This document shows, in pieces, positions 2,656-18,637 of a DNA stretch of 22,676 nt. Both the position numbers and the translations under genes were made by a program. The stretch's first letter is position 1. Each line of letters starts with the position of its first letter. The notes beneath the pieces were generated by a model, which worked only from the letters and a program-made list of their open reading frames with translations, made no database searches and was not told where the DNA came from. The DNA comes from a virus: positions 1 through 22,676 of IMG/VR virus record IMGVR_UViG_3300030060_008361; one strand, written 5' to 3'.

Positions 2656-3663
2656 ATGATTGCTGATATAGTTGTCGACCTTCAATACGGAGACTGCGGG
2701 AAGGGCAAGGTCGCACATGCCTTATGCCGTCAGAATAATTACACCCACGTTATTCGATATAATGGCGGCTGCAACGCAGGTCACACAATATACCATGAAG
2801 GCGTTAAATTTATAACGCATCATATTCCTTGTGGTGTGTTCTTTGGTATTAAGTCTATCATAGGTCCTGGTTGTGTTGTTCATGTTGACACTTTTCTAGA
2901 TGAAATAGAGAAACTTGAAGAAGCTGGTATACCGGCAAAAGAACTTGTAAAGGTTGCAACTAATGCCCACATCATTACAGACTTTCATAGAGCACAAGAC
3001 AGCAAAGACGAAGAAATTGGAACAACCAAAAGAGGTAACGGACCAGCATATCGAGACAAATATGGTCGAAAAGGTGTCAGAGCCATAGACGACCCAAGAT
3101 TGAGCAACTATCTAACAAATATTTATCTTGAACTTTATGAAAATGAAGAATTTGATGATATTGAAGTCCTTTTTGAAGGCGCCCAAGGTTTTGGCTTGGA
3201 CGTTGACTGGGGTGACTATCCCTATGTTACCTCTTCTCACTGTACAGTTGGTTCTGCTCTTCTTAACGGTGTTCCTCCAAGTGCAATAAGAAATACTTGG
3301 GGTGTTGCTAAGATATATGAAACATACGTTGGTGCAAAAGAATTCGAGGGCCCATATGATGAATTTGATGAAATTAGAGAACTTGGCCAGGAATATGGCG
3401 CCACAACTGGTAGACCAAGGCAAATAAATTGGCTTGACTTTGATTTATTAAAAATGGCGGCAAGGATTAACGGAATTAACAAACTTGTTGTTAACAAAAT
3501 GGATATTCTAGATGCCATAGGCAAATGGCATGCGTATAATGGGCCACACATACTTCAGTTTGATAGTCGAGAGGATATGGAATTTTGGATAGAAACAAAA
3601 TTAGAAATGGAAGTATCTGAGGATATAGAAACATTTTTTTCTGGAGACAAAGAACACATTTAA
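2656..3663 (+). CDS. Adenylosuccinate synthetase family (PurA/PurZ-like)
   Basis: A 335-aa member of the PurA family. PurA joins aspartate to IMP using GTP; its phage paralogue PurZ joins aspartate to dGMP to begin 2-aminoadenine (Z) synthesis. Visible marks: Q-Y-G-D-C-G-K-G-K at 10-18 (PurA has Q-W-G-D-E-G-K-G-K), G-G-C-N-A-G-H-T with the catalytic-acid His at 43, I-G-T-T-K-R-G-N-G-P-A-Y, F-E-G-A-Q-G, Y-P-Y-V-T-S-S, aspartate-loop G-A-T-T-G-R-P-R, and base-recognition N-K-M-D. The length matches archaeal PurA and phage PurZ (~340) rather than bacterial PurA (~430). The catalytic Asp13 is kept, while PurA Glu14 is Cys and Asp21 is His. Keeping Asp13 argues against canonical PurZ, so I leave the substrate open. 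AAAGGA precedes the ATG. Confidence 0.9.
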   Translation: MIADIVVDLQYGDCGKGKVAHALCRQNNYTHVIRYNGGCNAGHTIYHEGVKFITHHIPCGVFFGIKSIIGPGCVVHVDTFLDEIEKLEEAGIPAKELVKVATNAHIITDFHRAQDSKDEEIGTTKRGNGPAYRDKYGRKGVRAIDDPRLSNYLTNIYLELYENEEFDDIEVLFEGAQGFGLDVDWGDYPYVTSSHCTVGSALLNGVPPSAIRNTWGVAKIYETYVGAKEFEGPYDEFDEIRELGQEYGATTGRPRQINWLDFDLLKMAARINGINKLVVNKMDILDAIGKWHAYNGPHILQFDSREDMEFWIETKLEMEVSEDIETFFSGDKEHI

Positions 3664-3675
3664 CCTAATTATGGT

Positions 3676-4878
3676 ATGACTAAAGATCAAAAATATAAAT
3701 TCCTATTTGAAAACTGGCGCTCCTTTTTAAAAGAAGAAGATAAGGAGTCTCCTGAAGAGGATGAAGACGAAGTTAATTTTAGGAGCCAAGTAGATCTAAC
3801 TGATCCCGTGGAAAAAGGCTCTAGCTGGGATGCTCTTTCTGATTATGTTGGAGACACTTATATGATGATTAAACAAAAGTACCTTGGCTCTCCCGATTCA
3901 TCAAAGGGTGAGACTGATGAGTATGGTTTAGATGCTCCGATTGCAAATCAAATGACAGCCCTCAACAAAGATACGAGAGAAGAGCTAAAAAGTTGTGCCA
4001 AAAATTATTTACATTCTGGACCAGGCAAAAAGTGTAGAATAAAAGAACCTCATAAACTACCAAAACAACTTCGAGATTTCTTTTACAAATCCATGAAAGA
4101 AGAGTGGGAAAAAGCAAAAAAAGAAGCAGGCGATTCCCAAGAAGATAAAACTAAATTAAGCATATATAGTTCAAATTTTGAAACTTTCTTGGCGCTCTTA
4201 AAAAAGACCCCACCGCACCAGAAGCCAGAACAAAAACCAGTATCTAAATCTTCTGCCAGCAGCTCAGCACCAAACAACGATCATGTTAGTGTAGTTCGTC
4301 AAGAGCTTAAAAAATTCAAAGATAAGACCACAGGCAAACAAATTAAAGAAAAGGACCGACGGACATGGGAACATATAGCGAAATATTGGAAAAATATCAG
4401 ACGCAACGACCTGGCTACGGGCACTTTGGCAGGCAAATACAGGATAGATACATGGGCCGATGACATGAAATGGAGCGCAGCATTTATACAATATTGTATG
4501 CGGGGTAATAATGAGTTTAAAAAACTTGGATATAAATACGGTAAGTGGGCCGGCCCGGGAAATCACAAGTGGTATTGGATGGCCGCAAGAGAAAACACCA
4601 AATCGCTAAAAAATGGAACTCTGCCTGAAGATGATTGGTTTTTTCTTACCGCAAAGCAAATGAGAGAGATTGGCTATAGTCCTCAAGTAGGTGACATAGG
4701 TATGAGTCCTAATATGCATGGAGATATATATATTTCTCCGCGGAAGAAAGTCGGCGGAAATGTAAGCGACTCTGTCAGGCGTGCTTATACCAAGACAGTT
4801 GCAGTTGTAACCCAAAATACTGAAGCTAAAGAAAAGTTTTTAAAATTTCACAATGCTAGAAACCAAAACACAGTTTAG
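3676..4878 (+). CDS. DUF2272/NlpC-P60-like protein with packaging-like leader
   Basis: A 400-aa protein in three parts. Residues 1-25 hold K-F-L-F-E-N-W-R-S-F-L-K-E-E, a leader that I recall from many marine phage proteins; L-K-E at 18-20 resembles a T4 prohead-protease site. Residues ~25-210 are a charged linker with a basic patch. The C-terminal ~200 residues contain W-S-A-A-F-I-Q-Y-C-M-R, then H-K-W-Y-W-M-A-A and later V-G-D-I-G and H-G-D-I-Y-I. This matches the layout of DUF2272, which belongs to the NlpC/P60 cysteine-peptidase superfamily where such proteins cut or bind peptidoglycan. The usual Cys position reads Ser, so activity is uncertain. A virion-associated wall-directed role is an inference. 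Confidence 0.65.
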   Translation: MTKDQKYKFLFENWRSFLKEEDKESPEEDEDEVNFRSQVDLTDPVEKGSSWDALSDYVGDTYMMIKQKYLGSPDSSKGETDEYGLDAPIANQMTALNKDTREELKSCAKNYLHSGPGKKCRIKEPHKLPKQLRDFFYKSMKEEWEKAKKEAGDSQEDKTKLSIYSSNFETFLALLKKTPPHQKPEQKPVSKSSASSSAPNNDHVSVVRQELKKFKDKTTGKQIKEKDRRTWEHIAKYWKNIRRNDLATGTLAGKYRIDTWADDMKWSAAFIQYCMRGNNEFKKLGYKYGKWAGPGNHKWYWMAARENTKSLKNGTLPEDDWFFLTAKQMREIGYSPQVGDIGMSPNMHGDIYISPRKKVGGNVSDSVRRAYTKTVAVVTQNTEAKEKFLKFHNARNQNTV

Positions 4879-5554: not shown

Positions 5555-6433
5555 ATGCAAAACTTACAACCTTTTATTGACAGTCTTCAAAAATTTGCCC
5601 AAAAAAGGCTTGATTTTAAAGAACCACCAAAGCTTTTTTTAAAACAAGACCAAGAAAACGCTAAAGATGTATTTGGTAAAACCGCATTTTATGACCCAAA
5701 TGAAAAATCAATAACCATTTTTACAACTGGTCGTCACCCAAAGGATATACTTCGCTCAATTGCTCATGAGTTAGTTCACCACTGCCAAAACTTGCGTGGT
5801 GATTTAAGTCCTGAAAAATGCGGATCAATGGGTACTGACTATGCTCAAAAGAATGACCATATGAGAGAAATGGAAAGAGAAGCTTATGAAAAAGGAAACT
5901 TATGCTTTCGCGACTGGGAAGATGGAATAAAGGTCGCGATGCAACAAGAAAATAACCAACTAAAGGAGAACAAGAAAATGGTTAAGATATCAAAAAAAGA
6001 ACTTAAGGGTCTCATTGGAAAGATTCTTGAGGCAAGATTAGAGAAAGAGCAAACAGAAGAATTAGAAGAGGGCAGCTGTGTGCCTGGGGGTAAGGCTCAC
6101 AAGCGCGACGTAAAGAAAATGGAAGAAAATGAAGAACTCGAAGAGGGCGAAAAAATGCCAGATGAAAATAATGATGGTATTCCTGACTATGCACAAGATG
6201 GAAAGGGCGCAAAGGATCTAGGCAAAGCCAAGGGTTCTGATCCTGACAACAAGGAAGAAAAGTCTGATAAAGATCTAAGTAACGTCCCTCCGCAGCTAAG
6301 AGATAGTGTTGCTAAAAAAATGAAAGAATCCAAAATTCAAACACCAGAGCAAGAAAAAGCACTTTACGAATCAAGATTTAATAAAAGAAATGAAGAAATC
6401 TTTGATAAACTAAAGAAACTTTGGACCAAGTAA
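5555..6433 (+). CDS. HExxH metallopeptidase fused to motif-bearing tail
   Basis: A 292-aa protein. Residues 1-130 form a small zinc peptidase-like domain: H-E-L-V-H-H at 71-76 gives two His ligands and the catalytic Glu, and R-E-M-E-R-E-A-Y near 104-111 supplies a third ligand. From 142 a new segment begins with M-V-K-I-S-K-K-E-L-K-G-L-I-G-K-I-L-E-A; I-L-E|A at 157-160 fits a T4-type prohead-protease site. Then follows an acidic linker, D-E-N-N-D-G-I-P-D near 203 (a dockerin/EF-hand-like calcium loop), and a lysine-rich C-terminus. A perfect Shine-Dalgarno sequence precedes the internal Met142. The peptidase substrate is unknown. A virion role is an inference from the neighbours. Confidence 0.75.
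   Translation: MQNLQPFIDSLQKFAQKRLDFKEPPKLFLKQDQENAKDVFGKTAFYDPNEKSITIFTTGRHPKDILRSIAHELVHHCQNLRGDLSPEKCGSMGTDYAQKNDHMREMEREAYEKGNLCFRDWEDGIKVAMQQENNQLKENKKMVKISKKELKGLIGKILEARLEKEQTEELEEGSCVPGGKAHKRDVKKMEENEELEEGEKMPDENNDGIPDYAQDGKGAKDLGKAKGSDPDNKEEKSDKDLSNVPPQLRDSVAKKMKESKIQTPEQEKALYESRFNKRNEEIFDKLKKLWTK
5962..5980 (+). promoter_or_regulatory. Internal Shine-Dalgarno and in-frame ATG
   Basis: AAAGGAG at 5962-5968 sits nine bases ahead of the in-frame ATG at 5978, better than most true starts in this window. It would yield a 151-aa protein made only of the motif, calcium-loop and lysine-rich tail, separate from the HExxH domain. Confidence 0.5.
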
Positions 6434-11718: not shown

Positions 11719-12029
<311 letters not shown>

Positions 12030-12103: not shown

Positions 12104-12499
12104 ATGGAAAAGAAAAAACTAAAAGCAAAAATAAGAAGAGTCCTTGGTAAAGAGGGCGGCGCAGCCGGAATGAAAGCTTTAAAAAAGCAGACTGATTCCT
12201 CTGAAAAAGATATAAAATCAGCAGTTGCAGATGATGAAAAAGTAGCACAACATCCAGATAAAGACTACATTCTCGCCAAGGGGAAAATACAAATCTCTGA
12301 AGATGAAATTATTGATATGATTCAAGAAGAACTAAAAATTGTTCTTGATGAAAAACGCAAAAAGAAAAAAAGCAAGAAAAAGAAAGATGATAGATGCACA
12401 AGGATAGCCAAGAGAAAATATAATGTCTGGCCATCTGCTTATGCTTCAGGGGCTGTAGTTCGCTGCCGCGCCGGAAAAATCTGGAAAGGCGAAAAATAA
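12104..12499 (+). CDS. Basic Cys-containing protein, possible head cargo 1
   Basis: A 131-aa, very basic protein. Residues 1-60 include a helical start (M-E-K-K-K-L-K-A-K-I-R-R-V-L-G-K) and a charged stretch. Residues 63-83 hold the recurrent amphipathic motif I-S-E-D-E-I-I-D-M-I-Q-E-E-L-K-I-V-L-D-E, with I-Q-E and L-D-E as possible prohead-protease sites. A lysine run (84-94) precedes the terminal domain R-C-T-R-I-A-K-R-K-Y-N-V-W-P-S-A-Y-A-S-G-A-V-V-R-C, a Cys-flanked block I recall from marine phage proteins. First of four neighbouring genes of the same character. An internal-protein-like packaging role is inference. Confidence 0.65.
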   Translation: MEKKKLKAKIRRVLGKEGGAAGMKALKKQTDSSEKDIKSAVADDEKVAQHPDKDYILAKGKIQISEDEIIDMIQEELKIVLDEKRKKKKSKKKKDDRCTRIAKRKYNVWPSAYASGAVVRCRAGKIWKGEK

Positions 12500-12500
12500 G

Positions 12501-13052
12501 ATGAATATTCGCATCAAAATTCAAAAGTCTATTGATACGGCTAAATCTGACGTTGAAAAGATGCAGTGCCCTGATGCGACTCAAAACTTAAAGCTGAACA
12601 CCAAAAATAGAAATGGAGCTATAAAACAAGAGCATATTCAATATGGGCCACTCAATGTTGACGAGCCTGGTATGTACTGGAAAGATATTGCAGAGTTTTG
12701 GAACACTTCAGAAAATGCAGCAAAAAAATCAAATTGCTCGAATTGTGTCGCGTTTGATATATCACCTCGCATGGATGAATGCATGCCCGGGCCAGTAAGT
12801 GACCCTGACGGGCGCCTAGGGTACTGCTGGATGCATCACTTTAAGTGTCATTCTGCTAGAGCTTGTAGAACTTGGGCAAAAGGCGGCCCAATAAAAATTG
12901 ATGATAAGTCCTATGAATGGCAGGAAAAAAACGAAAACAAAATAGAAGAAAGGTGCCAAAAAGGATACAAAACTCATTCAAAAAGAAAAACGAAAAAAAT
13001 GTACGGTAAAACATATAGGAACTGTGTAAAAGCAGAACAATTATCCAAATGA
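12501..13052 (+). CDS. Cys-rich basic protein, possible Fe-S or Zn site
   Basis: A 183-aa protein starting with M-N-I-R-I-K-I, like the M-K-I-K-I-K-I start of the gene at 13375. The central domain (~48-130) is strikingly ordered: Y-G-P-L-N-V-D-E-P-G-M-Y-W, then Cys 79 and 82 (C-x2-C), Cys 94, Cys 109, Cys 116 and Cys 122, with G-Y-C-W-M-H-H-F-K-C-H. A C-x2-C followed by spaced Cys is the layout of small Fe-S (HiPIP-like) or zinc proteins; I cannot choose. The C-terminus is a basic R-C-Q-K-G-Y...R-K-T-K-K-M-Y-G-K-T-Y-R-N-C segment. A single base separates the previous stop from its ATG; its own TGA overlaps the next ATG. Confidence 0.65.
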   Translation: MNIRIKIQKSIDTAKSDVEKMQCPDATQNLKLNTKNRNGAIKQEHIQYGPLNVDEPGMYWKDIAEFWNTSENAAKKSNCSNCVAFDISPRMDECMPGPVSDPDGRLGYCWMHHFKCHSARACRTWAKGGPIKIDDKSYEWQEKNENKIEERCQKGYKTHSKRKTKKMYGKTYRNCVKAEQLSK

Positions 13053-13375
13053 AAAAGCAAGAACTCATAGATATAATAAAAGAAGAACTATCTATAGTTC
13101 TTGAAAAAAGAAAAAAGAAACGCAAAAAAGCCGGCACTGAATCGAGCAAAGAATCCTCATTAAGAGATTGGTTTGGCCGTAAAGGAGCCAAAGGCAAAAA
13201 GAAAGGGTGGGTTGATTGTAACGCCCCTGATGGAAAGGGCGGATATAAATCTTGTGGTCGCTCTTCTGGGGAGAAAAGGTCAAAGTATCCGGCATGCCGA
13301 CCAACTCCCGGTGCATGTAAAGAGAAAGGTCGAGGTAAATCTTGGGGTAAGAAAGCCAAGAGAGGTAAAAAATAA
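13049..13375 (+). CDS. Basic Gly/Cys-rich protein, possible head cargo
   Basis: A 108-aa, highly basic protein. Residues 1-20 (M-K-K-Q-E-L-I-D-I-I-K-E-E-L-S-I-V-L-E-K) are almost the same as residues 66-84 of the protein at 12104, followed by the same sort of R-K-K-K-R-K-K run. The remaining ~75 residues hold V-D-C-N-A-P-D-G-K-G-G-Y-K-S-C-G-R, K-Y-P-A-C-R-P-T-P-G-A-C-K and a K-G-R-G-K-S-W-G-K-K tail: four Cys in a loop-like basic domain. I recall this block from marine phage proteins but know no function. ATGA overlap upstream and TAATG overlap downstream mean it is translated with its neighbours. Confidence 0.65.
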   Translation: MKKQELIDIIKEELSIVLEKRKKKRKKAGTESSKESSLRDWFGRKGAKGKKKGWVDCNAPDGKGGYKSCGRSSGEKRSKYPACRPTPGACKEKGRGKSWGKKAKRGKK

Positions 13376-13950
13376 TGAAGATTAAAATTAAAATAAATGA
13401 AGCAAGAGAGCAAAGTCAACTAAAAGAGCAAGTCGAAGACGAAGAGACTCTTATGGCGTTAGCTATGCAGGCATTGCAAAGATTAACACCAGACCAATTG
13501 GGTGATGTAATTGAAATGGCACCACCAGAACAAGTTACAGAACAAAACGAACTTTTAAACGAATATGCAACTGTTGATGGATACTTTGATTTGTATGAAG
13601 CACTTCAAGACGCAATTGATGAAGATGGCAACACTCCATGTCCACAGTGCTTATATGAGACCATGGTCGATGCCGATTGTGGCTGCCCAGATATGCTTTC
13701 AGAAGCCGAATACAAGGGTAGAAAGGTCCAACTTAATAAGCGACTCCCTGGTGATGTAAAGAAATTTAAAGCTTTTGTAAAAGGTTGCGGTAAAGATAAA
13801 AGCCGTGTAAAGAAGGTAAACTTTGGTGACAAAAAAATGAAGATTAAAAAGTCTAACCCAAAACGCAGAAAATCTTTTAGAGCACGCCACAAGTGCCACA
13901 CAGCAAAGGACAAATGCACTGCAAGATATTGGTCCTGTAAGGCTTGGTGA
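13375..13950 (+). CDS. Two-part Cys/Lys protein, possible cleaved head cargo
   Basis: A 191-aa protein in two halves of opposite charge. Residues 1-110 are acidic, starting M-K-I-K-I-K-I-N-E|A (an I-N-E|A site at 7-10), and contain a Cys cluster at 89, 92, 102 and 104 (C-P-Q-C and C-G-C) that could bind zinc. L-S-E|A at 108-111 marks the border. Residues 111-191 are strongly basic (E-Y-K-G-R-K-V-Q-L-N-K, K-K-F-K-A-F-V-K-G-C, N-P-K-R-R-K-S-F-R-A-R-H) with four further Cys. Cutting at L-S-E would free an ~81-aa basic domain from an acidic leader, as in T4 internal proteins. That processing is inferred. Confidence 0.7.
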   Translation: MKIKIKINEAREQSQLKEQVEDEETLMALAMQALQRLTPDQLGDVIEMAPPEQVTEQNELLNEYATVDGYFDLYEALQDAIDEDGNTPCPQCLYETMVDADCGCPDMLSEAEYKGRKVQLNKRLPGDVKKFKAFVKGCGKDKSRVKKVNFGDKKMKIKKSNPKRRKSFRARHKCHTAKDKCTARYWSCKAW

Positions 13951-13956
13951 TTAGTT

Positions 13957-14784
13957 ATGAAGCATTGGATTCACGAGGAAGGGAATAAGGGACAAGAAGT
14001 AAGAAGGCTTCAGGATGCCCTTGGTATAACTGCTGATGGTGACTTCGGCCCTATGACTAAGAAAGCAGTAGAGCAATATCAATCTGATAGCGGCTTATCT
14101 GTAGATGGCCGAGTAGGGCCACAAACAAGAGAAAATTTAGGAATACAAATCTATCCAGGCCTTGACATAAGTTCGCATCAAGGCAAGGTAGACTGGAATG
14201 GTGTTGTGTCCTCTGGAGTTGTAGATTACTGTTGGATAAAGGTAACTGAAGGAAACACTCACGTTCAAAAGACAATAAAAGAATATTTTGATGGAGCCAA
14301 GAAAGTTGGCATACCAACAGGTGGGTATCATTTCGCAAGGGCAGATCTACACAAAGACCCGACAAAAGAAGTAGAGAATTTCGCAAAGAACTGCCCAGTT
14401 GAATCGGGAGGCCTAAAACCTGTTTTAGATTTTGAGGTTTCAGATAATCATGATAAAGATTCAGCCCATGCTTGGGTTTTAGAATTTGTTCAACAGGCAG
14501 AGAAAAAGCTTGGCGTCCCATTAGTTATTTATACTGGCGCTAATATGATACGCTATTCTCTCTTTAATAAAACGGATGGCTTTGATCATTGTCCTCTTTG
14601 GATCCCCGCATATAGCAAGAAAGTGTTTTCTAAGGGTATCCCAAAGAAAAATTATGATAATTGGAAAGAATGGACAATTTGGCAATGGACAGACCAGGAA
14701 AGAATTCCCGGAGTGAACACCAAAGTTGATAGGAATTGGCTTGTAGGTGGCCCAGCAGGTCTTAAAAAAATAATGGTGGATTGA
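13957..14784 (+). CDS. Endolysin: PG-binding domain + GH25 lysozyme
   Basis: A 275-aa peptidoglycan hydrolase. Residues 5-62 are a PG_binding_1 domain (G-Q-E-V-R-R-L-Q-D-A-L-G, D-G-D-F-G-P-M-T-K-K-A-V-E-Q-Y-Q, V-D-G-R-V-G-P-Q-T). Residues ~66-270 are a glycoside hydrolase 25 muramidase: G-L-D-I-S-S-H-Q-G with D70, K-V-T-E-G, G-G-Y-H-F-A-R near 122, and P-V-L-D-F-E-V with D158 and catalytic E160; I-W-Q-W-T-D closes the barrel. It cuts the MurNAc-GlcNAc bond. No signal peptide is visible, so release from the cytoplasm would need a holin, which I did not identify here. It precedes the fibre gene by one base. Confidence 0.9.
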   Translation: MKHWIHEEGNKGQEVRRLQDALGITADGDFGPMTKKAVEQYQSDSGLSVDGRVGPQTRENLGIQIYPGLDISSHQGKVDWNGVVSSGVVDYCWIKVTEGNTHVQKTIKEYFDGAKKVGIPTGGYHFARADLHKDPTKEVENFAKNCPVESGGLKPVLDFEVSDNHDKDSAHAWVLEFVQQAEKKLGVPLVIYTGANMIRYSLFNKTDGFDHCPLWIPAYSKKVFSKGIPKKNYDNWKEWTIWQWTDQERIPGVNTKVDRNWLVGGPAGLKKIMVD

Positions 14785-16225: not shown

Positions 16226-16831
16226 ATGATTCGCATTATAGGTAAAATACCACCAAAAGTTACTATTGCTTGTTCCGGCGGCATCGACTCTATGGTTTTC
16301 ACTAATTTCCTCTTACAAGGAAAAAGAGAAGTAGAGTTAGCTTATTTTAATCATGATACCAAACATGGCCAAGACGCAGAAGAATTTGTAAAAGAATATG
16401 CGGAAAAGAATAATCTAAAACTGAATATCGGAAGAGTAAAGGGCACAAAGGGTAAACGCTCTGTAGAAGAATTCTGGCGTGATGAGCGATACGCTTTTTT
16501 TGACACTCTTGAGAGTGATTATATCATAACCTGCCATCATTTAGGTGATTGTGTCGAAACTTGGATTATGTCAAGTTTACATGGAACAGGAAAAGTGATA
16601 CCATTTAGGAGAGCATCAAATATCTACAGGCCCTTTTTGATGACAGAAAAAAAGAGCATAAAAAGATATGCTGAAAAGCACCAAGTATCTTGGATAGAAG
16701 ATCCATCCAACTCAAGCATTCACTATATGCGAAATTATGTTAGAAAAAATATAGTACCGCACGCCTTGAAGGTCAATCCAGGATTAAGAAAAGTTCTTCG
16801 TAAAAAAATGCTTGAACTTTATGTAAAATAA
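16226..16831 (+). CDS. tilS: tRNA(Ile)-lysidine synthetase
   Basis: A 201-aa PP-loop ATPase. S-G-G-I-D-S-M at 17-23 is the ATP-pyrophosphatase loop, Y-F-N-H-D near 40 is the second strand, H-H-L-G-D-C-V-E-T at 104-112 matches the H-H-x-D-D-Q-x-E-T motif with changes, and E-D-P-S-N plus M-R-N-Y-V-R-x-x-I-V-P at 158-178 is the TilS-specific signature. TilS puts lysine on C34 of tRNA-Ile(CAU), switching it from AUG/Met to AUA/Ile reading. The protein is a catalytic core only; bacterial TilS often has extra C-terminal domains. A CAU tRNA lies 19 bases downstream. The promoter next to its ATG suggests independent expression. Confidence 0.85.
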   Translation: MIRIIGKIPPKVTIACSGGIDSMVFTNFLLQGKREVELAYFNHDTKHGQDAEEFVKEYAEKNNLKLNIGRVKGTKGKRSVEEFWRDERYAFFDTLESDYIITCHHLGDCVETWIMSSLHGTGKVIPFRRASNIYRPFLMTEKKSIKRYAEKHQVSWIEDPSNSSIHYMRNYVRKNIVPHALKVNPGLRKVLRKKMLELYVK

Positions 16832-16850
16832 TAGTATATTAGTTTTTATC

Positions 16851-16927
16851 GGACCTCTAGCTCAATCGGTTAGAGCATCCGGCTCATAACCGGCAGGTTC
16901 GCGGTTCAAGTCCGCGGAGGTCCACCA
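16851..16927 (+). tRNA. tRNA with CAU anticodon, likely Ile2 (AUA)
   Basis: A complete 77-base tRNA with encoded CCA. The acceptor GGACCUC pairs with GAGGUCC, discriminator A. The anticodon loop CUCAUAA places CAU at 16885-16887; the T arm is CGCGG-UUCAAGU-CCGCG. Sequence alone gives Met or Ile2. C4-G69 and C5-G68, the pairs reported to be read by TilS, are present, and a tilS gene is directly upstream, so I favour tRNA-Ile2 whose C34 becomes lysidine. Confidence 0.93.
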
Positions 16928-16943: not shown

Positions 16944-17576
16944 ATGAGAGATTATTTTTGGGGTTCAAGCGAAGAAGAAAAGCAACCCAAAACAATTCAT
17001 GAGGTAACCCAAGAAAGCACTGGGCATGCCTCTGAGGATTTTAATGTCGTAGAATTTAGCCACAATAGAATTTATTTTTATTCTGGGGTCACTAGGCCAA
17101 AAATTTTAAAATTAAATAAAGGTATTTTCAATATGAACATCAGCATGGCTTCGAAGTCCGGACCCCTCGGGTATGAGCCACCTCCAATTATGCTGCATAT
17201 TAATAGTTATGGTGGTAGTGTTTTCGCAGGCCTATCAGCCGTTGATTATATTAAAAATTCTAAGATTCCTGTTCACACTGTTATTGATGGCTGCGCAGCT
17301 TCCGCCGCAACTCTGATGTCCTGCGTCGCAGAGAGAAGATATATGCATAAAAATGCATGTATGTTAGTACATCAACTTTCTGGTATGATGTGGGGTAAAT
17401 TTCAAGAGATGCAGGATGATATGGAAAACTCGGAGATGTTAATGAAGAAAATAAAAAATATCTACAAAGAGCACACAAAGATTCCTAAAAAAGAAATGGA
17501 CAATATTCTAAAACATGACATTTGGTGGGAGGCCGAAAAATGTTTAGAATATGGATTAGTGGATGAGTTAATTTAA
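16944..17576 (+). CDS. clpP: ClpP-like serine protease
   Basis: A 210-aa ClpP-family protein. I-N-S-Y-G-G-S-V-F-A-G near 86-96 is the oxyanion/strand region, G-C-A-A-S-A-A at 116-122 holds the nucleophile S120, L-V-H-Q at 141-144 holds H143, and H-D-I-W-W-E-A-E-K-C-L-E-Y-G-L-V-D-E gives D192 plus the ClpP ending. The triad is complete. The first ~32 residues are polar and extra. AAGGAG seven bases before the ATG fixes the start, just past the tRNA CCA end. Phage ClpP-type enzymes may act with the host ClpX/ClpA or as head-maturation proteases; both are possible. The tmRNA tag ending L-A-A makes the first reading attractive. Confidence 0.9.
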   Translation: MRDYFWGSSEEEKQPKTIHEVTQESTGHASEDFNVVEFSHNRIYFYSGVTRPKILKLNKGIFNMNISMASKSGPLGYEPPPIMLHINSYGGSVFAGLSAVDYIKNSKIPVHTVIDGCAASAATLMSCVAERRYMHKNACMLVHQLSGMMWGKFQEMQDDMENSEMLMKKIKNIYKEHTKIPKKEMDNILKHDIWWEAEKCLEYGLVDELI

Positions 17577-17577
17577 T

Positions 17578-17874
17578 ATGAAAACTAGATCTGTAACATC
17601 AAAAGAGTCTTTAGATATATTAAAACCATTAGCAGAAAAAGAAGATTTTATTAATTTCACCGGCCACAAAAAGTTTCCACATAAAGGTTTGGGAGAAAAT
17701 GTATATCGGTTTACTATAAACATCATGTCTTTAGACTTGTTAATAAGTATCATGGAACACGAGCAGGTACAAAATGTATATTTTACACCATCATCTCCAC
17801 CCACCGGCGCCGGCATGGATAGTATTTCTATGATATACAAGGTTTACGTTAAGTATCATCCTGTTGAAGAATAA
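17578..17874 (+). CDS. Unknown 98-aa protein after clpP
   Basis: A 98-aa protein beginning one base after the clpP stop, probably co-translated. It looks like a small alpha/beta domain: I-N-F-T-G-H-K-K-F, Y-R-F-T-I-N-I-M-S, V-Q-N-V-Y-F-T-P-S-S-P-P-T-G-A-G and I-Y-K-V-Y-V-K-Y-H as strands, with a helix S-L-D-L-L-I-S-I-M-E-H between. No catalytic residues, Cys or membrane segment stand out. Its 3' end overlaps the convergent minus-strand gene by 26 bases. No family is recognised; the position suggests a partner or regulator of ClpP, but that is only a guess. Confidence 0.6.
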   Translation: MKTRSVTSKESLDILKPLAEKEDFINFTGHKKFPHKGLGENVYRFTINIMSLDLLISIMEHEQVQNVYFTPSSPPTGAGMDSISMIYKVYVKYHPVEE

Positions 17875-18637
17875 AAAGCTCTAACATTTTTTGAGTTCTT
17901 AATAAAAAGTTTTTAACTCTACTATGATTTATTATTAAAGTTGAGTTTTTAAAGTTAGGGTGTACAGCAAAAACAACTCCATATATCCTATTAGAAAGCG
18001 ACAAAACAGCGCCCCCACTAGAGCCTCCATGAGAAGGTAAGCTGGTTATTGACACAAACTTATCTATTGGCCCACTGTACACTCCTTTAAGCATTAATAC
18101 ATTCGGAGGGTGGTATATTCCTAGTGGCGCCCCCATATAGTAAATATCTTCTCCATTCTTGGGCGCCCTCGTTTCAATTTTAATATCATCATCTTGACCT
18201 TTTAGCCCCATAACAACAAGGCTACACAAGTCGGCACTTGTATGTGTGGCAAGTTCAGCAATCACAGTCTTAGCACTAAAAAATCTATTTTGATAATTTT
18301 GAACCATAATTTCTTCTTCTAAGCTGTATGAAAAAGTTGGGTCCTTTTTGTTAATTTCATGACTTGAATCGCAAACATGCCCAGAGGTCAATACAACTGC
18401 GTATTCTTTTACAACTTTAACAAAAGCTCCCGAGCCACTTCTTCCAAACTTTTTTGTTTCACATTGCTTTGTTGGATCTTTCTGTTTTTTCTTAAAGCAC
18501 TTGGTTATTGTAAGTGTCTTATATACTTTAACAAATTTGTCTGTAGGTGGATTTTTTATAACAGAAGTGTTATGAATCATTGTACATCCTGTACAAAAAA
18601 TAAAAAAAGCATATAAAAATAGGATTTTCCACTTCAT
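17849..18637 (-). CDS. Trypsin-like serine protease, predicted lipoprotein
   Basis: The only clear minus-strand gene, 262 aa. The N-terminus (M-K-W-K, hydrophobic L-F-L-Y-A-F-F-I-F, then C-T-G-C) is a lipoprotein-like signal with C18 as the likely lipidated Cys; the -3 residue is Cys rather than Leu, so the lipobox is imperfect. The chymotrypsin-fold triad is visible: V-L-T-S-G-H-V-C with H87, S-A-D-L-C-S-L with D136, and G-G-S-S-G-G-A with S207. M-G-A-P-L-G and G-V-Y-S-G-P resemble HtrA-like trypsin-2 domains. It would sit at the cell envelope. The start has no Shine-Dalgarno sequence; TATACT and TATTAT boxes lie directly upstream. Strand and secretion suggest an accessory gene of the moron type. 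Confidence 0.85.
   Translation of the reverse strand: MKWKILFLYAFFIFCTGCTMIHNTSVIKNPPTDKFVKVYKTLTITKCFKKKQKDPTKQCETKKFGRSGSGAFVKVVKEYAVVLTSGHVCDSSHEINKKDPTFSYSLEEEIMVQNYQNRFFSAKTVIAELATHTSADLCSLVVMGLKGQDDDIKIETRAPKNGEDIYYMGAPLGIYHPPNVLMLKGVYSGPIDKFVSITSLPSHGGSSGGAVLSLSNRIYGVVFAVHPNFKNSTLIINHSRVKNFLLRTQKMLELFILQQDDT

Follow-up and report, generated by a model that had tools for sequence, protein, structure and literature searches.

What do four consecutive genes for small, Lys- and Cys-rich proteins contribute to the phage that carries them? They lie in a 22,676-nucleotide window, the opening 22.7 kb of an IMG/VR virus record of 97,256 bases (IMGVR_UViG_3300030060_008361). The remainder of the record holds T4-type genes related to those of Flavobacterium phage immuto (baseplate wedge, primase, terminase large subunit, and, at the right end, a truncated gp20 portal gene). 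The record breaks off within gp20, ahead of the place where gp21 is expected, and the gp21 and gp23 genes fall outside the 97 kb. The original prediction, made from the letters of the window, was that the four genes encode head-packaged cargo resembling the T4 internal proteins and built by swapping domains behind a common leader.

Four adjacent genes and their neighborhood

The four ORFs (gA to gD, 12104 to 13950, on one strand) follow each other with overlaps of at most 4 bases or gaps of at most 1 base, in agreement with the adjacency first described, and are flanked by a tmRNA gene (11719 to 12029) and a GH25 endolysin (13957 to 14784; E = 5.8e-39) that abuts gD. Their products have 131, 183, 108, and 191 aa, net charges (K+R-D-E) of +17, +11, +24, and +5, and 2, 9, 4, and 8 Cys residues, respectively. 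All four are Cys-bearing as predicted, but "very basic" does not describe gD as a whole (pI 8.7), in which an acidic N-terminal half precedes 81 C-terminal residues with a charge of +25 and a pI of 10.7. The helix held to be a shared N-terminal module is present in gA (residues 69 to 81, IIDMIQEELKIVL) and in gC (residues 6 to 18, LIDIIKEELSIVL), each time with a Lys/Arg run after it, but in gA it lies between two modules, so that the term "N-terminal" is wrong for this protein. The similar starts noted in the other two genes are MNIRIKI in gB and MKIKIKI in gD.

None of the four proteins could be assigned to a functional family with Pfam, PHROG, or NCBIfam. PHROG 727 (a 450-position profile) matched gA and gC at different places of the profile, the first hint that the proteins are made of modules. 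Using module HMMs, the architectures in the window are E-A for gA, B-H for gB, C for gC, and D for gD (Table 1).

Table 1. Features of the four-gene cluster and of one further leader in the same record (positions are those of the window; arrows mark predicted cleavage sites)
Feature	Position	Strand	Basis
gA: module E, internal helix leader, Lys run, and module A	12104..12499	+	ORF
gA module E (EGGAAGM...H...DYIL, ~55 aa), residues 9-61	12128..12286	+	HMM, 77.8 bits; alignment
gA internal leader helix DEIIDMIQEELKIVLDE, flanked by predicted sites ISE↓DE and LDE↓KR	12302..12352	+	Junction statistics
gA module A (Cys/basic, DUF5872-like), residues 94-123	12383..12472	+	HMM, 64.9 bits
gB: MNIRIKI start, module B, and module H	12501..13052	+	ORF
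gB MxIxIKI start (leader type 3), without L/I-x-E close behind	12501..12521	+	
gB module B (six conserved Cys)	12621..12902	+	HMM, 190 bits; tblastn; alignment
gB module H (CQKGYKTH...YRNCVKAE), predicted site IEE↓RC just before	12948..13034	+	HMM, 48.6 bits
gC: N-terminal helix leader, Lys run, and module C	13049..13375	+	ORF
gC leader MKKQELIDIIKEELSIVLE↓KRKKK; I-x-E at IIKE, V-x-E at the Lys-run boundary	13049..13105	+	
gC module C (four conserved Cys)	13151..13354	+	HMM, 120.6 bits; alignment
gD: MKIKIKINE↓AR leader, acidic spacer, and module D	13375..13950	+	ORF
gD module D (Tlr6F/DUF5754-like), predicted site LSE↓AEY directly before	13705..13947	+	HMM, 117.8 bits; AF2; junction test
Capsid-targeting-like leader KFLFENWRSFLKE↓ of a separate protein of the record	3676..3744	+	

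Several other genes of the window deserve mention in their own right. The tmRNA gene directly upstream of the cluster is complete and phage encoded, with the tag ANDDVENFEDFALAA. A TilS-like PP-loop protein (16226 to 16927; ATP_bind_3, 9.8e-37) is directly followed by a CAT tRNA, called as Met by ARAGORN, and the two together hint that the phage encodes a tRNA-Ile2 along with a lysidine synthetase for it; a ClpP-like protease (16944 to 17576; 5.3e-28) adjoins this tRNA. An adenylosuccinate-synthetase/PurZ-like protein (2656 to 3663; phrog_1211, 5.8e-70) gives a hint of 2-aminoadenine metabolism. A single minus-strand gene amid plus-strand genes (17849 to 18637) encodes a trypsin-like protease domain (1.3e-9) behind a lipoprotein-like N terminus. 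Finally, the protein at 5555 to 6433, which shares homology with a portion of the NMNAT-like protein of immuto, combines a HELVHH metalloprotease-like motif with an internal leader-like helix, KKELKGLIGKILEARLEKE.

A kit of short modules

In a tblastn search of cultured phages, those of Pelagibacter, Roseobacter, Methylophilales, and Flavobacterium proved to carry the gD C-terminal domain. Among them, Flavobacterium phage immuto is an isolate with module genes 172 (module D) and 187 (A and C), and its gene 187 has the gA and gC domains side by side, in the order leader-A-leader-C. Three IMG/VR scans provided about 240 viral loci, from which the module profiles were built and among which A, B, C, and D appear single or in many orders. 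With 14 module HMMs (A to D and ten further recurrent pieces), 81 architectures were distinguished in 410 ORFs, counts that include related sequences and are not independent; the fusions included A-C, C-A, A-D, A-C-D, C-A-D, and B-A-C. The modules measure about 20 to 95 residues and are mostly basic, mostly with conserved Cys. The proposed domain swapping behind leaders is strongly supported by this number of architectures and by the interchangeability of the leaders. To judge from their sequences, the four window genes belong to a widespread kit of short basic modules recombined behind interchangeable leaders, and no paper describing this kit was found in the open-access literature searched. 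The endolysin neighborhood was rejected as a defining property of the cluster, since relatives lack the endolysin adjacency.

As for the identity of the modules, ten of 30 members of D matched DUF5754 (PF19058) over most or all of the profile (best E = 9.8e-4), although below the curated Pfam cut-off (14.8 bits for the window member against 27.4), and D was for this reason not filed as a DUF5754 member. It is probably a remote relative of Tlr6F/DUF5754 that, in these phages, follows a leader or is joined to a prohead protease. Tlr6F, an orphan without known structure or function, is reported to be conserved in almost every polinton-like virus, in many giant viruses and several virophages, and in some phages (PMC4642659, PMC12220804). 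The AF2 model of D (pLDDT 87.6; this and the other structure models were built from IMG/VR rows only) has five strands and two helices and matches other phage proteins, one of them an XkdF fusion, with no PDB neighbor. A Csa3-like assignment of D was discarded (E = 0.002 over 30 residues only, with a per-domain E of 0.9). Module A matched the N-terminal part of DUF5872 (PF19197), a family also listed in an alga virus, in 18 of 20 members (best E = 2.6e-4), a partial match that stays below the curated cut-off (23.0 bits for immuto gene 187 against 27.5). GenBank relatives of module B are annotated as high potential iron-sulfur protein (HiPIP), and both are Cys-rich with CxxC and a Trp/Gly-rich C terminus, but this identity was not adopted, with six conserved Cys in B against four in HiPIPs and no match to Pfam, NCBIfam, or PDB profiles. 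The AF2 model of B was unusable (pLDDT 44), and no solved structure was matched convincingly by the sequence profiles of A, B, C, or D.

Leaders and predicted cut sites

The leaders are of at least four kinds, the helix LxxIIxEELxxVLxE, MKLLxENWRxFIxE, MxIxI(K/R)I, and MxDLYGxLDE; one module may stand behind different leaders, and one leader before different modules. Within the first 45 residues, a strict helix regex retrieved 19 ORFs in six phage records versus about 1.7 in shuffled sequences. Because a single strict regex misses most leaders, looser regexes with shuffle controls were used, and these found leader motifs in 147 of 344 module ORFs versus 89 of 883 other ORFs (14 and 42 with shuffled N termini), an enrichment whose P value (2e-35) is not to be taken literally because the counts include related sequences. 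More than half of the module ORFs (197) had no match to these regexes. A single common leader is not supported as proposed; the leaders comprise several interchangeable types that are not always N-terminal.

Besides gC residues 1 to 19, MKLLLENWRKFINE is a candidate leader. The ENWRxFIxE type also precedes a ParB-like protein (recognized by eye), an ART-PolyVal-like protein (E = 0.006, below the cut-off), and a SET-domain protein, and NUDIX (6e-13) and HAD-like proteins have related leaders of the form WxxFLxE. The SET-domain protein (4e-10) is encoded at positions 14032 to 14415 of a marine phage record (L309), behind the capsid-targeting-like leader MKVLFENWRKYINE. In immuto, the end of the scaffold protein (SEQVSRWQKLAGIIK) and the start of gene 188 (SEQFRRMQKLAGIITE) are near copies (L001, 15231 to 15695; L006, 9227 to 10468), and the gene 188 leader seems to mimic the scaffold C terminus.

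In T4, the prohead protease gp21 cuts after L/I-X-E and the capsid-targeting sequences (CTS) removed have 10 to 19 residues; in the IPIII leader, targeting depends mainly on residues 4 and 7 and processing on residues 8 and 10 (PMC9026906). Upstream of modules A and C, the Lys run is preceded by hydrophobic-x-Glu in 145 of 156 distinct segments, against 50 expected when the preceding 18 residues are permuted, and by L/I-x-E in 133. The site occurs alike at N-terminal and internal positions and across leader types, and L/I-x-E is found even in 89 of 108 segments without a recognized leader. Of 77 distinct starts of module D, 73 have hydrophobic-x-Glu directly before A-x-Y. Three cultured phages that lack gp21 encode a D protein beginning with M-A-x-Y exactly at the predicted cut residue, so that the product expected from cleavage is identical in extent to this free-standing homologue. 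Among the four window genes, L/I-x-E behind a leader is clear in gA and gD and partial in the other two: gC has it within the helix (IIKE↓E), while its Lys-run site (VLE↓K) is V-x-E and not L/I-x-E, and gB lacks it near the N terminus, with IEE only before module H.

Of 28 large IMG/VR records with modules, 21 encode peptidase S77 (gp21, PF03420), and the other records may be fragments. Of ten cultured carriers of D or B, the four T4-like phages encode gp21 and the other six lack it; the N-terminal extension of D accompanies gp21 in four of four gp21-plus records and is missing or nearly so in five gp21-minus D carriers. CRP-6 has no S77 peptidase, and its D module forms part of one protein with an XkdF-type prohead protease (PF14550, 7.2e-18). 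Moreover, gp21 of the relatives itself starts with MKLLREYFELC...LLTE, and MKLLxE(Y/N)(F/W) is common to gp21 and cargo leaders. This pattern, formulated after inspection of the sequences, occurs in 18 of 25 gp21 proteins versus 16 of 651 ORFs genome-wide, four of the latter being gp21 and most others leader genes. Sequence comparison demonstrates modularity, leader exchange, the placement of the predicted cut sites, and gp21 in the relatives. As a separate observation, a gene for a bS21-like ribosomal protein (4.2e-5, below the cut-off) lies close to the prohead protease gene in relatives (L285, 4763 to 4975; G023, 118762 to 118977).

Virion evidence and the role of the four proteins

By virion mass spectrometry, Synechococcus phage S-CREM2 yielded seven unique peptides of the "hypothetical" ORF160 (PMC10665884, Table 3), which is composed of modules A (E = 6e-21) and H/I (7e-12 and 1e-12). 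What counts most for the packaging reading is that a protein built from the window's module types was thereby detected in purified cyanophage virions. ORF160 has homologues in 365 phage records, almost all of them from cyanophages, and Syn9 gp114 and S-SM1 115 contain A and H/I together with a terminal DUF6321 (5.4e-21 and 2.8e-22). ORF160 has no clear T4-type leader; a predicted junction cut in it falls between ISE and GKKDACYHK. A T4-derived CTS pattern (aromatic-x-x-aromatic-hydrophobic-x-Glu) was found in 5 of 50 S-CREM2 virion proteins versus 2 of 167 others (P = 0.008); the five are a SAM hydrolase, a Cas9-like nuclease, a kinase, a cytidylyltransferase, and hypothetical ORF136, and most non-structural virion enzymes of this phage begin with T4-like capsid-targeting sequences. 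Only the T4-like aromatic leader was enriched; the helix type alone was not (2 of 50 versus 8 of 167). The Cas9-like nuclease (L323, 7704 to 10313), located in virions by its authors, has the T4-CTS-like RFASFMAE near its N terminus. NMNAT-like proteins are recurrent in other cyanophage virions.

Taken together, we consider it likely that the four genes encode prohead-targeted, protease-trimmed internal head proteins in a T4-like myovirus. The precursors would be directed to the prohead's scaffolding core by short leaders (LxxIIxEELxxVLxE, MKLLxENWRxFIxE, or MxIxIKI). A gp21-type protease would cut them there after hydrophobic-x-Glu, stripping the leaders and separating fused modules, and leaving with the DNA a mix of small, Cys-bearing, strongly basic domains (A, B, C, D, E, and H). 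The phages would keep the modules as an exchangeable kit; one phage has them as separate genes and another fused in whatever order, either form being tolerated because cleavage would make gene order irrelevant. This mechanism appears the most likely, with targeting and trimming argued from sequence and relatives and retention from one homologue; for the window phage itself, we infer packaging and cleavage. The claim of head-packaged internal proteins is to this extent upheld, by the L/I-x-E junctions, gp21 in relatives, the shared leader, and a homologue in virions, while that of injected effectors like IPI is not supported as stated. From their charge and by analogy with T4, the basic modules may bind the packaged DNA and/or be injected.

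The same virion data could be read differently. The S-CREM2 authors propose encapsidation, yet caution about carry-over, and gp21 (4 peptides) and the scaffold (7) are detected in the virions about as sparsely as ORF160 (PMC10665884), which makes core remnants or carry-over possible. The four proteins might thus be core or scaffold components, basic prohead assembly proteins comparable to T4 gp67 and gp68 that are cut by gp21 and mostly gone before DNA packaging, as the many cut sites per protein (like those of T4 core proteins) and the likeness of the immuto scaffold C terminus to the gene 188 leader would also suggest. We regard this as unlikely, since the leaders are also carried by enzymes without a scaffold role, the predicted products are compact conserved basic domains instead of disposable fragments, and D is free-standing in phages without gp21.

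It is quite improbable that the proteins remain outside the virion as nucleic-acid-binding or host-takeover proteins, with the helix as an oligomerization or docking element and LxE as a by-product of the transition from acidic to basic sequence. The modules are indeed basic, Cys-bearing, and without a known domain, and the EEL helix leaders look generic and show no virion enrichment of their own in S-CREM2. However, hydrophobic residues at position -2 far exceed what shuffling of the same residues gives, the leader is common to gp21, a module homologue is in virions, and D is fused to a prohead protease. A tail, baseplate, or lysis-associated function, as tail-tip or cell-wall-acting cationic peptides encoded upstream of the GH25 endolysin, is very improbable, for although the endolysin abuts gD and some cyanophage homologues are labeled "structural protein," neither endolysin nor baseplate genes adjoin the modules in immuto or in those cyanophages that were examined, the modules of Syn9 and S-SM1 lie between gp16 and gp17, and gp21-type sites point to the prohead.

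If the four proteins are internal head proteins, the combination of leader, L/I-x-E junction, and module would provide a sequence rule predicting packaged, unannotated proteins of abundant marine T4-like phages; the proteins it flags, probably delivered to the host, include SAM hydrolase, Cas9-like nuclease, NMNAT-like, and SET-domain proteins. For the orphan Tlr6F and DUF5872 families, it offers a lead toward a virion-internal, DNA-associated role. A broader and tentative possibility is that marine T4-like phages fill their heads with combinatorial, protease-released basic mini-domains, a virion "chromatin" made from shuffled polyproteins with a logic like that of adenovirus core-protein maturation, and that Tlr6F/DUF5754 and DUF5872 act likewise in giant viruses, virophages, and polinton-like viruses, in which case these orphan families would gain a function across viral realms.

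Among known systems, the inner-body and ejection proteins of phiKZ and SPN3US, with a gp21-like protease, are similar in that many head proteins are trimmed after x-x-E and identical N termini occur on diverged proteins, but they differ in the motif (S/A-x-E) and the long propeptides, and no modules common with the window were found here (PMC5694885). The likeness to T4 IPI-III and Alt, with their CTS and gp21, comprises the short leader ending in L/I-x-E, the S77 prohead protease in relatives, variable cargo behind a common leader with basic products, and, in one relative, an ADP-ribosyltransferase-like cargo behind the same leaders. The cargo domains themselves gave no Pfam or PHROG match indicating homology to T4 internal proteins or Alt. 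Unlike the T4 internal proteins, the proteins described here have several leader types, internal leaders and cut sites where several modules are fused into one protein, and recurring Cys/Lys modules shuffled in any order. Thus, internal-protein-like working is already known from T4, and what is new is the shuffled multi-module precursor with internal cut sites.
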